Part shown: one piece after another, positions 3,080 through 24,292 of the stretch | Layout of the letters: each line of letters opens with the position of its first letter | How positions within the stretch are numbered: the first letter of the stretch is position 1 | IMG/VR virus record: IMGVR_UViG_3300042562_001170 | Span: 1-34,245 of that record | Source: a virus | Reading direction: 5' to 3' (one strand) | Length of the DNA: 34,245 nt | The notes under the pieces: generated by a model | Database searches by the model: none | Told to the model about the DNA's origin: nothing | What the model saw: only the letters and a program-made list of their open reading frames with translations | Made by a program: the position numbers and the translations under genes

Positions 3080-3316
3080 ATGACCACTATCCGCCGCAAC
3101 TCTAAAGCCATCCGCGAGATCCTTTTGGCTGGCTACACCGCTAAAGCTTACTCGCTCGACAACGGATTTTCAGGCGAGTCTTGCGCCCTTGAATGGGTAC
3201 GAGGTCACTATGACCGGCTTCCGTTCGCCAAGGCTTCCAAGCACGGCGAGCGCGTGACGATCAGCATTCACGGCAATCTCTGGTATGAGCTGACGCCTGA
3301 GCTTGTGAACGCCTAA
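3080..3316 (+). CDS. Hypothetical early phage protein (78 aa)
   Basis: I chose the ATG at 3080 rather than the upstream in-frame start, because the extra N-terminus would be encoded by the inverted-repeat control region and looks non-coding. The protein begins MTTIRRNSKAIREILLAGY, a helical, basic segment, and ends with a short beta-looking stretch (HGERVTISIHGNLWYEL). I do not recognise a family. It is the first gene of the rightward early region. Its TAA stop lies inside a GCCTAAC heptamer that forms one arm of an inverted repeat. Confidence 0.65.
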   Translation: MTTIRRNSKAIREILLAGYTAKAYSLDNGFSGESCALEWVRGHYDRLPFAKASKHGERVTISIHGNLWYELTPELVNA

Positions 3317-3354
3317 CCTTTCCCGCCCCGCCAGCCGGTGACTTGTCGTTAGGT
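3311..3354 (+). repeat. attC-like inverted repeat with consensus core heptamers
   Basis: GCCTAAC (3311-3317) fits the attC R'' consensus RYYYAAC, and GTTAGGT (3348-3354) fits the R' consensus GTTRRRY; the two arms are complementary at six of seven positions. As in many integron cassettes, the preceding gene's stop codon lies inside R''. ACTTGT just before R' is shared with sites further right. The inner L-box pairing is weak and the element is short at 44 bp, so it may be a degenerate site or an ordinary hairpin. Confidence 0.35.
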
Positions 3355-3388
3355 AACGGCGAGCGGCGGCGGGGAACCACTCATTACC

Positions 3389-3556
3389 ATGACACCAACC
3401 CAGATCGCAAACCTTGAGGCAGTCCTGCTCATGCTAGCCAGAGACTACAAAAACGCCTCGCCAACCGCGTCCGCCGCATATGCCAACGCCGCCTCACTCC
3501 TTATTGAGGCCGCTAGCAAGCCACGCCGCACCCGGCGCAAACTCACCACGCCATGA
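3389..3556 (+). CDS. Small helical hypothetical protein (55 aa)
   Basis: The ATG at 3389 opens a 55-codon frame ending at a TGA that overlaps the next ATG (ATGA). The protein is Ala-rich and helical with a basic tail (KPRRTRRKL). No family is recognised. The ATGA chain through the next three genes supports it as real. Confidence 0.5.
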   Translation: MTPTQIANLEAVLLMLARDYKNASPTASAAYANAASLLIEAASKPRRTRRKLTTP

Positions 3557-3648
3557 GCATCCTGGCCGCCGGCTTTGTCTGGGCTGGTTTGTCCATCCTC
3601 GCCCTTGTCGCCTTCAACCTTCTTTCCCGATCCAACTCTCACCGATGA
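3553..3648 (+). CDS. Tiny single-pass membrane protein (31 aa)
   Basis: A 31-codon frame is coupled at both ends by ATGA overlaps. Nearly the whole peptide is one hydrophobic segment (ILAAGFVWAGLSILALVAF) followed by a short polar tail. It is a likely one-helix membrane peptide; phages often carry such peptides, but nothing in the sequence assigns a role. Confidence 0.5.
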   Translation: MSILAAGFVWAGLSILALVAFNLLSRSNSHR

Positions 3649-11182: not shown

Positions 11183-11269
11183 AACTCCTCGTCCCACGCG
11201 TGGCAACCTGTGAACACCGTGTGAATTGATTGCACTTCCCTTGTAACGGAAAAAACGCAAAGTAACGCC

Positions 11270-12013
11270 ATGTCGTATACAAAACTGTTTTCATCAATTG
11301 TAACGTCCACGATTTGGACGGAAGACGCCAAAACCTGCAAAGTTTGGGTGACGATGCTCGCCATCGCCAACAAACACGGCGAGGTTCAAGCGTCTATCCC
11401 CGGCCTTGCTCAGATTGCCGGATTACCACTCGACGACACGGAAGCCGCGATTGAGAAGTTTCTATCCCCCGATAAATACAGCCGCACGCCAGACGATCAG
11501 GGGCGCAGGATCGAAAAGATCGAAGGCGGCTGGCTTCTTTTGAATCACGCTAAATACAGGGCGATGGCATCAAAGGACGAAGAGAAAGCGTCTTCCGCGA
11601 AACGGCAATCGGCGTTCCGTGATCGTCAGAAGCGTAACGCAAGCGTAACGCCTAGTAACGGTTCCGTAACGGTCAGTAACGATGCCGTAACGGGAAACAG
11701 GGACATAGCAGAAGCAGAAGCAGAAGCAGAAGCATTTAAGAAAAAAACTAAGGCGCGAGGAACGATCGAGGAAGTCGTCGAATTCTCCAAATCCATCGGA
11801 CTCCCGGAATCAGATGGTGAATACCTTTTTCACAAGTGGGAGGGTAACGGGTGGACGAACGGAGGGTCACCGGTGAAGAATTGGAAAGCCACAATTCGAA
11901 GCTGGGTCAAAGGCAAGTTCCTCCCCAGCCAGAAAGCACCCGCCGAAAAGCCAGGATCTTCCAAATCCTACTTGTCCTCCGTCAACGGCTACAACGAACG
12001 AACCGATTTTTGA
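11270..12013 (+). CDS. Phage replication initiator, lambda O-like (247 aa)
   Basis: The N-terminus (MSYTKLFSSIVTSTIW, then KVWVTMLAIANKHGEV) is the winged-helix opening seen in many phage replication proteins that combine an origin-binding N-terminal domain with a C-terminal loader-interacting part. The middle (residues about 100-160) is low-complexity and includes AEAEAEAEA. This is where the DNA carries six phased GTAACG repeats followed by an A-rich tract. The C-terminal 85 residues (ESDGEYLFHKWEGNGWTNGG) resemble the C-terminal segment of phage DnaD/O-type proteins. The helicase loader gene follows 3 nt later, as lambda P follows O. Three more GTAACG copies flank the start. Confidence 0.8.
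   Translation: MSYTKLFSSIVTSTIWTEDAKTCKVWVTMLAIANKHGEVQASIPGLAQIAGLPLDDTEAAIEKFLSPDKYSRTPDDQGRRIEKIEGGWLLLNHAKYRAMASKDEEKASSAKRQSAFRDRQKRNASVTPSNGSVTVSNDAVTGNRDIAEAEAEAEAFKKKTKARGTIEEVVEFSKSIGLPESDGEYLFHKWEGNGWTNGGSPVKNWKATIRSWVKGKFLPSQKAPAEKPGSSKSYLSSVNGYNERTDF
11634..11755 (+). other. Candidate replication origin: six phased GTAACG iterons plus A-rich tract
   Basis: GTAACG occurs at 11634, 11645, 11655, 11666, 11676 and 11687, so spacings alternate 11, 10, 11, 10, 11 bp, which is one helical turn on average. These distances are not multiples of three, so protein coding does not explain them. A 6-bp tandem repeat GCAGAA (four copies, 11708-11731) and an A/T-rich stretch (about 11732-11752) follow, in the place of a DNA-unwinding element. 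Further GTAACG copies lie at 11243, 11262, 11300 and 11844. The arrangement parallels the lambda origin inside gene O. Confidence 0.8.
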
Positions 12014-12016
12014 CCC

Positions 12017-12727
12017 ATGAACCACGAATCTAAAGCCGACCCGCTCACCATCATGAATCGAATCCTTGCGGAGTTCGACGAACTGCAGGAAGCTCCAGCA
12101 GAATCTCCTCCAAAGGCATCGGCGGCAGTCCGACCGGCAAATGCACTGTCATCGCGCCACGGATGGCCTGAGCGGGTTATCCGCGCCCAAGGAGAGCCGG
12201 AAGGCGGTGAATGGATGGCAGCTTTCGCTTTAGCCGCTCCGGTCATTGAGCGCGGAGGAATTGCCGTCTTCCACGGATTGCGCGGAACCGGCAAAACCCG
12301 CATGGCTGGCGAGATTGCGCAGAAAGTCCCGTTTCCCTACGACTACAAGCGGCATGGAACGCCAATCGGAACCCCCGTGGAGAAAGCTAGAACGGCGGCA
12401 TACAGGACCGCCATGTCGTTCTTCACGGAAATCCGCGCGAGCTACGCCAAGAACTCCGAAACGACTGAGAAGCAGGTTGTAGAGGCGCTGGAGGCTCACG
12501 GGCTACTCGTCATTGACGAACTGCAGGAACGTGGCGCGACAGCCTTCGAGGACCGATTGCTCACCCACCTCATCGACAAGCGATACGGTGCGATGCTGCC
12601 GACGATATTGATTTCCAATCAGACAAAGGCCCAGCTTTTCGAGAGCATCAGCCCGAGCATCGCTGACCGCATCGCGGAAACCGGAATCAGGATCGAGTTC
12701 AACTGGAAATCTTACCGCAGACCATGA
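12017..12727 (+). CDS. DnaC/IstB-like helicase loader ATPase (236 aa)
   Basis: Walker A is GLRGTGKT at residues 87-94, Walker B is LLVIDEL at 163-169, and a sensor-like ILISNQT occurs near 198-203. The C-terminus SIADRIAETGIRIEFNW carries the arginine-finger-type ending of DnaC-like AAA+ loaders. The N-terminal 80 residues are probably the helicase- or initiator-binding part. Lacking a primase or helicase gene in the window, the phage presumably recruits the host DnaB. The gene directly follows the initiator gene and overlaps the next start by ATGA. Confidence 0.85.
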   Translation: MNHESKADPLTIMNRILAEFDELQEAPAESPPKASAAVRPANALSSRHGWPERVIRAQGEPEGGEWMAAFALAAPVIERGGIAVFHGLRGTGKTRMAGEIAQKVPFPYDYKRHGTPIGTPVEKARTAAYRTAMSFFTEIRASYAKNSETTEKQVVEALEAHGLLVIDELQERGATAFEDRLLTHLIDKRYGAMLPTILISNQTKAQLFESISPSIADRIAETGIRIEFNWKSYRRP

Positions 12728-13038
12728 CCACCCCCGCCCAGATCATCGAGGCCGTCCACCAAGCCACTGGGGCCGAACCCGACGAGATCATCTCGAAATC
12801 CCGCCGCCACTCCGTCCTGTTCCCGCGCTACATCGTGCTACTCCTCCTCAGGCAGTCCCGACCGTTCTTTTCCGAGATCGAGCTGGGCCAGTTGATCGGC
12901 ATCGAAGGGCACGGCTCGACCCGCCACGCACTCGGCAAGGCTAATGAGCTACTCGACCAAGATCAGCATTTCCAGATCGCGCACAGCAAGGCGACGGCGA
13001 TTCTGGGGGATTCTTTCCCTACAGCCGCAAGCGATTGA
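12724..13038 (+). CDS. DnaA domain IV-like DNA-binding protein (104 aa)
   Basis: The protein consists almost only of a fold like the C-terminal DNA-binding domain of DnaA. It has SKSRRHSVLFPRYIVLLLLRQSRPFFSEIELGQLIG (helix, loop and helix) followed by GHGSTRHALGKANELLDQD, the counterpart of the DnaA signature helix (GRDHSTVLHA). The AAA+ part is missing. It could bind host or phage DnaA-box-like sites, helping replication or interfering with host initiation. ATGA-coupled to the helicase loader gene. Confidence 0.75.
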   Translation: MTTPAQIIEAVHQATGAEPDEIISKSRRHSVLFPRYIVLLLLRQSRPFFSEIELGQLIGIEGHGSTRHALGKANELLDQDQHFQIAHSKATAILGDSFPTAASD

Positions 13039-14466: not shown

Positions 14467-15111
14467 TCATGCCTGCTCGTAAAGACCCAGATCGGCATTG
14501 GTCTTGGCGAACTCACCGAAGAGTTCCTTCACTCTTGCGTCATAGGCGCGGGCCGCATCTTCCTCCACAGCGAAGGTGCCGAGGTATACGTTTATTGCCC
14601 TGCCTTCCTCCGTGACGCGAACTCCGGCGCGCCATTTGCCTTTCGTGGAGCTGGCATAGACGCCCTTGAACTGGGATGCCCCGGACACCTTGGACTGGTT
14701 CCGCATGTTGCCGTGATGGTCACAGATGCGGAGGTTGCAACGACGATTGTCTGATGTGTCGCCATTGATGTGATCCACGCCGAACCGGAAGCCTTCTCTC
14801 GAAAGTCCTTCGACGCCCCCTTTGACCCCCACCATAACAATGCGATGGACCGCCCCGCCTGTTGTTTGGCACTTAGCCATGCGGCTTGCTTTTGCGTATC
14901 CTAAACCATTACAACAAAAAGGAGTCATTTTCATCGATTCCCAATCGTCGGAATTCAGTCTAAACCTCCATCCTTTACGGGTGGAAACGACAACCACCAT
15001 TCCATTTTCCTCTTCGTCGAAATACGAGGCGAGAACATGATTATGTTTCGGAACCAAATGGCGCTTCAGGGGATTTGAGAAACTTTGGACAAGGTGTTGG
15101 ATTGGATTCAT
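14467..15111 (-). CDS. HNH homing-type endonuclease with AP2 domain (214 aa)
   Basis: I chose the ATG at 15111 because the extra 30 residues upstream are low-complexity. The HNH core is VHRIVM...FRFGVDHINGDTSD, NRRCNLRICDHHGNMRN, with the expected His, Asn and His residues. An AP2 DNA-binding domain follows (FKGVYASSTKGKWRAGVRV, YLGTFAVEEDAARAYDARV). This domain pair is typical of free-standing phage homing endonucleases, which nick or cut a specific site and spread the gene. It is on the opposite strand to its neighbours, lies directly after a terminator, and its 5' half is more AT-rich, all of which suggest a later insertion. Confidence 0.9.
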   Translation of the reverse strand: MNPIQHLVQSFSNPLKRHLVPKHNHVLASYFDEEENGMVVVVSTRKGWRFRLNSDDWESMKMTPFCCNGLGYAKASRMAKCQTTGGAVHRIVMVGVKGGVEGLSREGFRFGVDHINGDTSDNRRCNLRICDHHGNMRNQSKVSGASQFKGVYASSTKGKWRAGVRVTEEGRAINVYLGTFAVEEDAARAYDARVKELFGEFAKTNADLGLYEQA

Positions 15112-15657
15112 CACGGAAAAAATAAACAGTAGCAGACTCAGTTTTTCAACTCCGAAATTTTTTTCCCAAAAACCCTCGCCCTCCCCTCGACACCTCCCCA
15201 CCCCCCTGGTTCAGTTTCAGCCCCCCAATTGTCGGGATAGGCTCAAACGCACTTGGTTTGCATTTGCGGTCAGGCTGCTAATGCACTCAATTTGCGTTTT
15301 CCTGGGTCGGGTCGGCTCATGTCTGCCGATGGCCAGGCATTCACCTAGGTGCGATGGAATAGCGGGTGGGACATGACCGGGACCGCTAAACGGTGGCCAG
15401 GCGTTGCCGATCTTCCGGCCATTGTCGCTCGAGCCGTCGCTCGAGCCGTCGCTCGTCCCATCGATTACCAGGGAGGCGAGCGCTTGAGGATGACAGCTGG
15501 AAAGCACGACCGGAAAACATGCGCCCCCACGGCTCCGCTTGCGATGTATTCCGGGATCGTGCAAAAATATTTGCGCTTTCCTCTTGATTTCCGCGCGGCA
15601 GGAATCATGGTGCATCCATCGGCAGGCGATAAAGCCTCCCGCAATTAAACGATAACG
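15112..15657. other. 546-bp stretch without a convincing gene
   Basis: The stretch between the HNH start and the Gp88-like gene has ORFs on both strands (99 and 150 codons) but neither looks like protein. It contains a pyrimidine-rich tract (about 15168-15225), several TTTGC words (15250-15300, 15560) and a 12-bp tandem repeat GTCGCTCGAGCC at 15424, 15436 and partly 15448. It presumably carries the promoter of the HNH gene or of the gene at 15658, but I could not fix one. Confidence 0.5.
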
Positions 15658-24213: not shown

Positions 24214-24248
24214 GGGGCTGGGGAGAAATCCTCAGCCCCTTAGCTTTG
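24214..24248 (+). terminator. Hairpin terminator/attenuator after the coat gene
   Basis: GGGGCTGGGGA (24214-24224) pairs with TCCTCAGCCCC (24229-24239) through eleven pairs, one of them G-T, closed by a GAAA tetraloop. The following TTAGCTTTG is only weakly T-rich, so read-through is likely. It would raise capsid mRNA relative to the tail genes. Confidence 0.75.
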
Positions 24249-24255
24249 CAAGTAA

Positions 24256-24292
24256 TTTGCGTTTGCAATAATTTTGCGTTTGCGATATTAGC
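24256..24292 (+). promoter_or_regulatory. Candidate tail-operon promoter with 11-bp direct repeat
   Basis: TTTGCGTTTGC occurs at 24256-24266 and 24273-24283, 17 bp apart. Overlapping it, TTGCAA (24264-24269) lies 17 bp before TATTAG (24287-24292), which ends five bases before the ATG at 24298. The geometry predicts a leaderless message. The repeat could alternatively be an activator site. Confidence 0.5.

Follow-up and report, generated by a model that had tools for sequence, protein, structure and literature searches.

Positions 11634–11749 of the viral DNA analysed here probably form a replication origin that lies within its own initiator gene, and an Arg-rich helix encoded just upstream probably reads the repeated word of that origin, GTAACG. 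This reading comes from sequence comparison. The DNA is a 34,245-bp stretch from an IMG/VR virus record and is referred to below as the window. An earlier note, made from the letters alone, had proposed a lambda-like origin inside an initiator gene, and the proposal is well supported by a synonymous-codon test, the alternating reading frames of the repeats, their phasing kept in relatives, copies of the word in non-coding DNA and a DnaC-like helicase loader. The features concerned are collected in Table 1.

Table 1. Positions in the window of the proposed origin's components and neighboring genes, with the basis for each
Feature	Positions	Strand	Basis
Non-coding GTAACG, −27 from ATG, candidate operator	11243..11248	+	word search; upstream copies in relatives
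Non-coding GTAACG, −8 from ATG, candidate operator	11262..11267	+	word search; upstream copies in relatives
Proposed replication initiator gene, 247 aa	11270..12013	+	ORF; N-domain relatives; C-domain match; AF2 model
GTAACG coding V-T of conserved IVTSTIW	11300..11305	+	word search
Codons of predicted long helix, aa 93–124, after winged helix	11546..11641	+	AF2, pLDDT about 68–84 in helix
Codons of putative reader motif R112-Q-S-A-F-R117 (class R[QV]xx[HFYW][RK])	11603..11620	+	motif–word association; cassette exchange
Six GTAACG iterons, spaced 11,10,11,10,11 bp	11634..11692	+	exact word search; arrays in relatives
Locally weak duplex (tract and A-rich ATTTAAGAAAAAAACTAA), candidate unwinding zone	11700..11749	+	duplex stability
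CAGAAG six-bp tandem tract, begins 16 bp past last iteron	11709..11734	+	tandem-repeat finding
DnaC-like helicase loader gene	12017..12727	+	PHROG 50, E = 2.4e-29; PHROG 3277, E = 2.7e-21
Small protein resembling DnaA C-terminal DNA-binding domain	12724..13038	+	PF08299, E = 2.2e-7

Phased GTAACG repeats in the proposed initiator gene

The earlier note had listed six exact copies of GTAACG on the + strand, starting at 11634, 11645, 11655, 11666, 11676 and 11687, and both the copies and their 11- and 10-bp steps are precisely as it gave them. The whole window contains 18 copies of the word. Dinucleotide shuffles of the window give an expectation of 7.4, and none of 100 shuffles reached 18. Ten of the 18 are situated on one strand inside 11243–11849. 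When all hexamers in the 34,245 bp are considered, GTAACG (with its reverse complement) is the sole one that shows three or more copies in 10/11 alternation.

The array was compared with what the encoded protein would permit, by keeping the protein fixed and drawing codons from the usage of the window. In 200,000 draws the segment 11634–11692 never contained six copies, and the maximum was four. Multiplied together, the synonymous probabilities of the six copies come to 2.4e-9, a value this low because the array relies on the rare codons GTA for Val and AGT for Ser. The copies alternate between frame 0, where the word encodes V-T, and frame +1, where it encodes x-N-x. The third reading frame contains the stop TAA, thus the 11/10 alternation is the only spacing of approximately 10.5 bp that is open to a coding sequence. 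It had been claimed that the spacing breaks codon periodicity and that selection therefore acts on DNA. The second part stands, on the synonymous-codon test, the frame alternation, the non-coding copies and the phasing kept in relatives; the first needs amending, as the frame returns at every second copy (21 bp = 7 codons). Repeated sites within the coding sequence of an initiator, selected as DNA, are a mark of the lambda O type of arrangement and are found here. Since the mean distance between iterons equals one turn of the helix, proteins bound to them would share one face of the DNA.

Four more copies of the word, beyond the six and absent from the earlier note, are found nearby, at 11243, 11262, 11300 and 11844. 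The first two precede the start codon, and −8 is the commonest upstream position of the word in the family; early in-gene copies resembling that at 11300 are found in a few relatives. GTAACG is present upstream of the start codon in 35 of 52 GTAACG genes versus 4 of 32 genes with other words. These other words show upstream copies as well, e.g. TGTCCC in L150 and L188 and GTCACG in L183 and L191, in both cases at about 10-bp steps. The occurrence of a gene's own word in non-coding upstream DNA favors recognition in trans and hints that the initiator regulates its own gene. In L318 and L329, which carry the reader motif, GTAACG copies precede the start by 90–160 bp, as though the array had been relocated to outside the gene.

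A GCAGAA tandem repeat and an A-rich stretch had been reported to follow the array, and both are present, the tract occupying 11707–11734. A CAGANN tract is found in 91 of 137 relatives gathered by the N-terminal domain, most commonly at a distance of 16 bp from the last iteron. It is translated as AEAEAE in 84 relatives and as QKQKQK in seven; because it is read in two frames, the tract is apparently selected as DNA. Duplex weakness at 11700 is at the 98.5th percentile of the 50-bp windows of the record, and the site is outside the 12 weakest of the window. In the family, mean duplex stability is lowest 20–70 bp past the last iteron.

The initiator, its neighbors and its relatives

The proposed initiator consists of a predicted winged-helix N-terminal domain, a long Arg-rich helix, a linker encoded by the iterons and a C-terminal domain of the HKWEGNGW type. 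The protein has no Pfam or NCBIfam assignment, and its C-terminal part matches PHROG 15768 (E = 6e-12). In the AlphaFold2 model of amino acids 1–129 (mean pLDDT 84 overall), a winged-helix-like fold leads into a single long helix that bears the motif. A Foldseek search with the model matched winged-helix proteins, none below E = 0.001. The C-terminal domain alone is common to L004–L007, which have no array, and the N-domain relatives L001–L003 carry one; thus the array goes with the N-terminal part of the protein.

A helicase loader is encoded adjacent to the initiator, as in the lambda O type of arrangement. The gene that follows it encodes a small DnaA-domain-like protein whose PF08299 score, 31.2 bits, is just under the cut-off of 31.5, and which is a possible replication accessory. 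In L004 a similar 104 aa open reading frame (3290–3604) is also found after the loader.

Rfam and tRNA scans of the entire window gave no match. At 633–2846 (− strand) there is a 737 aa open reading frame that by eye combines a helicase-like N-terminal part with a DNA-methyltransferase-like C-terminal part. Another, at 14467–15201 (− strand) with its neighbors on the opposite strand, resembles by eye a homing endonuclease of the HNH/AP2 type. A perfect 12-bp tandem repeat, GTCGCTCGAGCC, is present in 2.7 copies at 15424–15455, and a 17-bp tandem repeat, TTTGCAATAATTTTGCG, lies between structural genes at 24245–24287 and is AT-rich relative to its surroundings.

Relatives were gathered by the N-terminal domain alone, which avoids selection on the word, and amount to 137 non-redundant genes. 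Direct tblastn with the N-domain found no relatives among annotated phages, nor did a contig scan with the single protein; an alignment query did find them. At the same place in the gene, 52 of the 137 carry GTAACG. Another 32 carry other words, i.e. GTCACG, GTCAAC, TGTCCC, GTCAATG, GTGACG, GTAAGCC, GTAATG or words of the CTAACG type; 31 have weak or unclassified repeats, and 22 have no phased repeat by the criterion used. Up to 10 copies are found inside a gene. The first 36 genes that lack a GTAACG array contain 211 hexamer pairs at a lag of 10/11, compared with 10 (maximum 28) in synonymous shuffles; thus a change of word leaves the phasing intact. The N-domain of L134 matches that of the window at 84% over 110 aa, but the Arg-rich segment and the array are both missing and the frame ends early.

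The IMG/VR collection was scanned with the pattern GTAACG-N5-GTAACG-N4-GTAACG. At least 120 stretches contain it, against three for the shuffled hexamer GCAATG at the same spacing. Among the matches listed, most of those inspected fall in initiator-like phage genes in which the copies alternate in frame; the N-domains of these genes differ and include PF09681 in Firmicutes-type proteins. A control with GTAACG at 15/15 spacing, which coding permits, gave 81 stretches, and these are mostly single-frame repeats of structural or low-complexity proteins. Thus frame alternation, not the mere presence of a repeat, is the distinguishing mark.

These comparisons qualify three statements of the earlier note. 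It had called the repeat different from that of lambda and very tight, which is right, although with at least 120 such stretches in IMG/VR the repeat is not peculiar to this phage. It had proposed conserved spacing in relatives as a check; 10/11 phasing does persist across words, but Firmicutes relatives usually show 12,11,10. It had named relatives with the same protein and no repeats as the refuting case, and most N-domain relatives have an array, often of another word, while 22 of the 137 have none.

Several other arrangements of words were seen. A scan for phased TGTCCC gave 100 stretches, many of them antisense or in short frames, and in L361, L367, L368 and similar contigs TGTCCC arrays of opposite orientation face each other about 60–70 bp apart. 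In Listeria phage A118, the linker of the replication gene (gp49, L130:8609–9541) holds ACAACG repeats at intervals of about 12 bp, and ACAACG may be another such word. The Firmicutes phages L529, L530, L533, L537, L539 and L541 have inverted word pairs, e.g. GTAACGTTAC or GTCACGTGAC, which suggests that binding in these phages has two-fold symmetry.

The Arg-rich motif and the iteron word

For the association of motif and word, the Arg-rich segments were aligned without gaps after the N-domain. The motif R[QV]xx[HFYW][RK], which was defined after inspecting the data, is found just before the array in 53 of 55 GTAACG/GTAATG genes versus 3 of 29 genes with other words (p = 3.6e-16, ignoring relatedness). 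Genes with TGTCCC show R-K-x-R-Y-R in the Arg-rich segment, in those with GTAAGCC the first Arg of the motif is replaced by Ala, and the aromatic residue is absent in five of six GTCACG genes. The N-domain tree offers only six well-supported independent pairs; the motif goes in the same direction in 4.3 and in the opposite direction in 0.1 of these, and the median sign-test p is 0.125, not significant.

Proteins picked by the DNA pattern alone have the motif at most 24 aa before the first iteron in 67 of 81 cases, and control windows of such proteins contain it in 17 of 3243 (0.5%). A separate sample consisted of 17 annotated Firmicutes phages chosen by N-domain: two or more copies of GTAACG are present in eight of nine with the motif versus one of eight without (Fisher p = 0.003). 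RKQKQR is found in two annotated phages with GTCACG, and RKQRQR occurs with GTCACG in L195, on the other backbone. Where a gene had been assigned no word, GTAACG is found nearby in 15 of 20 with the motif versus 7 of 32 without. The motif is found without an array in L322, L331 and L542, and a GTAACG array with a non-fitting motif in L179, L310 and L539.

One natural pair shows an exchange. L147, with ten copies of GTAACG, and L138, with TGTCCC, are identical in the first approximately 97 residues. Their DNA is near-identical over roughly the first 309 nucleotides of the gene, and becomes so again at the CAGAAG tract. What differs is the block of approximately 160 bp between, which holds an Arg-rich segment and the array and has been replaced (L147 versus L138/L142). 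Thus in this pair motif and array are exchanged together.

The proposed origin, its alternatives and its counterparts

In the proposed origin, the initiator would bind each iteron by way of the helix around R112–R117, with the winged-helix domain helping, and one protein would be placed at each helical turn along the array. The row of bound initiators would then open the adjoining CAGANN/A-rich zone. The gene order suggests that the C-terminal domain may hand over to the DnaC-like loader, which would load the host helicase. The copies at −27 and −8 may let the initiator regulate its own gene. Because the reader codons adjoin the sites, a single exchange of approximately 160 bp changes both, and specificity could be exchanged in cassette form. 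As the earlier note predicted, initiators may assemble cooperatively or as a filament on the array. Cumulative GC-skew, which had been put forward as a check of the origin, is flat in the window and uninformative.

The array could instead be an operator for autoregulation, with replication starting elsewhere. Own-word copies upstream of the start in many relatives fit such a role, as do L318 and L329, where the array is apparently upstream of the gene instead of inside it. However, up to 10 copies deep in the gene, together with a tract at fixed distance and a candidate unwinding zone of weak duplex, correspond to the lambda arrangement (PMC7466680), and the next gene is a helicase loader, so an operator alone appears unlikely. 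That the winged helix sets site specificity and the Arg-rich motif is merely correlated is likewise improbable. Such domains commonly bind DNA, and N-domain columns 38, 40 and 17 also associate with word class. But the N-domains of L147 and L138 are identical over 97 compared residues, yet their words and Arg-rich segments differ; the motif also pairs with GTAACG on an N-domain of a different Pfam family, PF09681, and RKQ[KR]QR pairs with GTCACG on both backbones.

Recognition of the repeats by a host DNA-binding protein, and not by a phage protein, has a general precedent in the host factors used at some plasmid and phage origins, and nothing direct in its favor. It is very improbable here, as changes of word go along with changes in residues of the phage protein itself, and word and residues are exchanged jointly. 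The region does encode RNASVTPSNGSVTVSNDAVTG and then AEAEAEAEA, as would a linker of repetitive, low-complexity protein sequence that has no role at the DNA level. A protein-only repeat of this kind is, however, ruled out by the synonymous-codon test, by the two-frame reading of both array and tract and by the non-coding copies, and the change of word with phasing kept also stands against it; its probability is negligible.

As an origin within the initiator gene, the region has several counterparts. In lambda, P is the helicase loader and is encoded next to O. The window resembles lambda O/ori-lambda and the Stx phages in that the iterons are inside the initiator gene and the loader partner is encoded next. 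Lambda iterons lie in the middle of the gene beside an AT-rich unwinding zone; there are four in lambda and six in Stx phages, they are longer and each is an inverted repeat, and the zone is strongly AT-rich (PMC7466680). The window instead has a CAGANN tract and six direct repeats of 6 bp that are spaced by one helical turn, and its protein gave no match to the O-protein families of Pfam, NCBIfam and PHROG.

Phage_rep_org_N (PF09681) genes of Firmicutes phages share with the window the gene layout and GTAACG after the same Arg-rich motif, and a linker with direct repeats after the N-domain, as in these genes, is present. Their spacing is usually 12,11,10, and the tract is GATATA/GAAGAA-like, unlike that of the window. 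The note to the related TIGR01714 is reported to say that the low-complexity region reflects DNA direct repeats able to act as an origin. For PF09681 itself, the published description reads 'N-terminal phage replisome organizer, origin of phage replication' (PMC3764933). The window protein shows no match to PF09681 at E up to 1 (family cut-off 23.3 bits), and its relative L147 scores 11.5 bits (E = 0.3). Lactococcus phage TP901-1 Rep (orf13) also has repeats inside the rep gene, which Ostergaard and coworkers are said to have found in 2001 to be essential for replication. These are units of approximately 15 bp (ACTAAATACTAATAT...) without GTAACG, in a different protein. TP901-1 and A118 were considered as GTAACG carriers and rejected, as the word is absent from both and A118 gp49 has ACAACG.

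PLE RepA_N/ori of Vibrio cholerae satellites is a case in which the DNA-binding domain and the iterons covary and swap as a module, and replication takes place only with matched initiator–ori pairs (PMC8263062). The PLE ori is intergenic with iterons of approximately 30 bp, whereas in the window the putative reader codons lie beside the sites within a single gene.

An analogy may also be drawn with eukaryotic bZIP proteins. NFIL3 contacts bases of a TTAC/GTAA half-site through N83, A86, A87, S90 and R91, i.e. i, i+3, i+4, i+7 and i+8 (PMC10941009). By analogy, positions 11, 14, 15, 18 and 19 of the phage segment would share this contact register, and the word contains GTAA. When positions are ranked by how strongly they associate with the word, 11, 14 and 15 stand near the top, but so do 10 and 17. 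No PDB sequence matched the reader segment or the family profile beyond chance in a search for bZIP homology. Unlike NFIL3 or Pap1/Yap, the phage protein displays no apparent leucine zipper, the codons past its helix being those of the array linker; its iterons are direct repeats and its helix is joined to a winged helix, and the likeness is offered as analogy and hypothesis only. We put forward tentatively, and at less than even odds, a fuller reading in which a single bZIP-like helix reads the word by a simple residue–base code, carried in one exchangeable cassette of approximately 160 bp on several unrelated N-domains and in phages of several bacterial phyla, and convergent with eukaryotic bZIP. 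Under that code, an aromatic versus a non-aromatic residue at motif position 5 would correspond to A versus C at base 3, and Arg to Ala at motif position 1 to GTAACG versus GTAAGCC.

Origins inside initiator genes are already known (lambda O, PMC7466680; PF09681, PMC3764933), as is the swapping of matched initiator and origin in PLE satellites (PMC8263062). The literature outside subscription journals gave no description of the word family, the 11/10 coding solution or the reader–word association; the apparent reader–word code and the cassette swapping look new. They touch on an old problem, i.e. how an initiator and its origin change partners without losing function when a change in only one of them should be lethal. 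In these genes the codons that probably read the sites adjoin them, and both can move in a single exchange; the L147/L138 pair is a ready-made experiment on such a change of partners. If the association of motif and word is causal, the location of the origin and its word would be predictable from the protein for many uncharacterised phages, and so would the replication compatibility of phages that share a cell.
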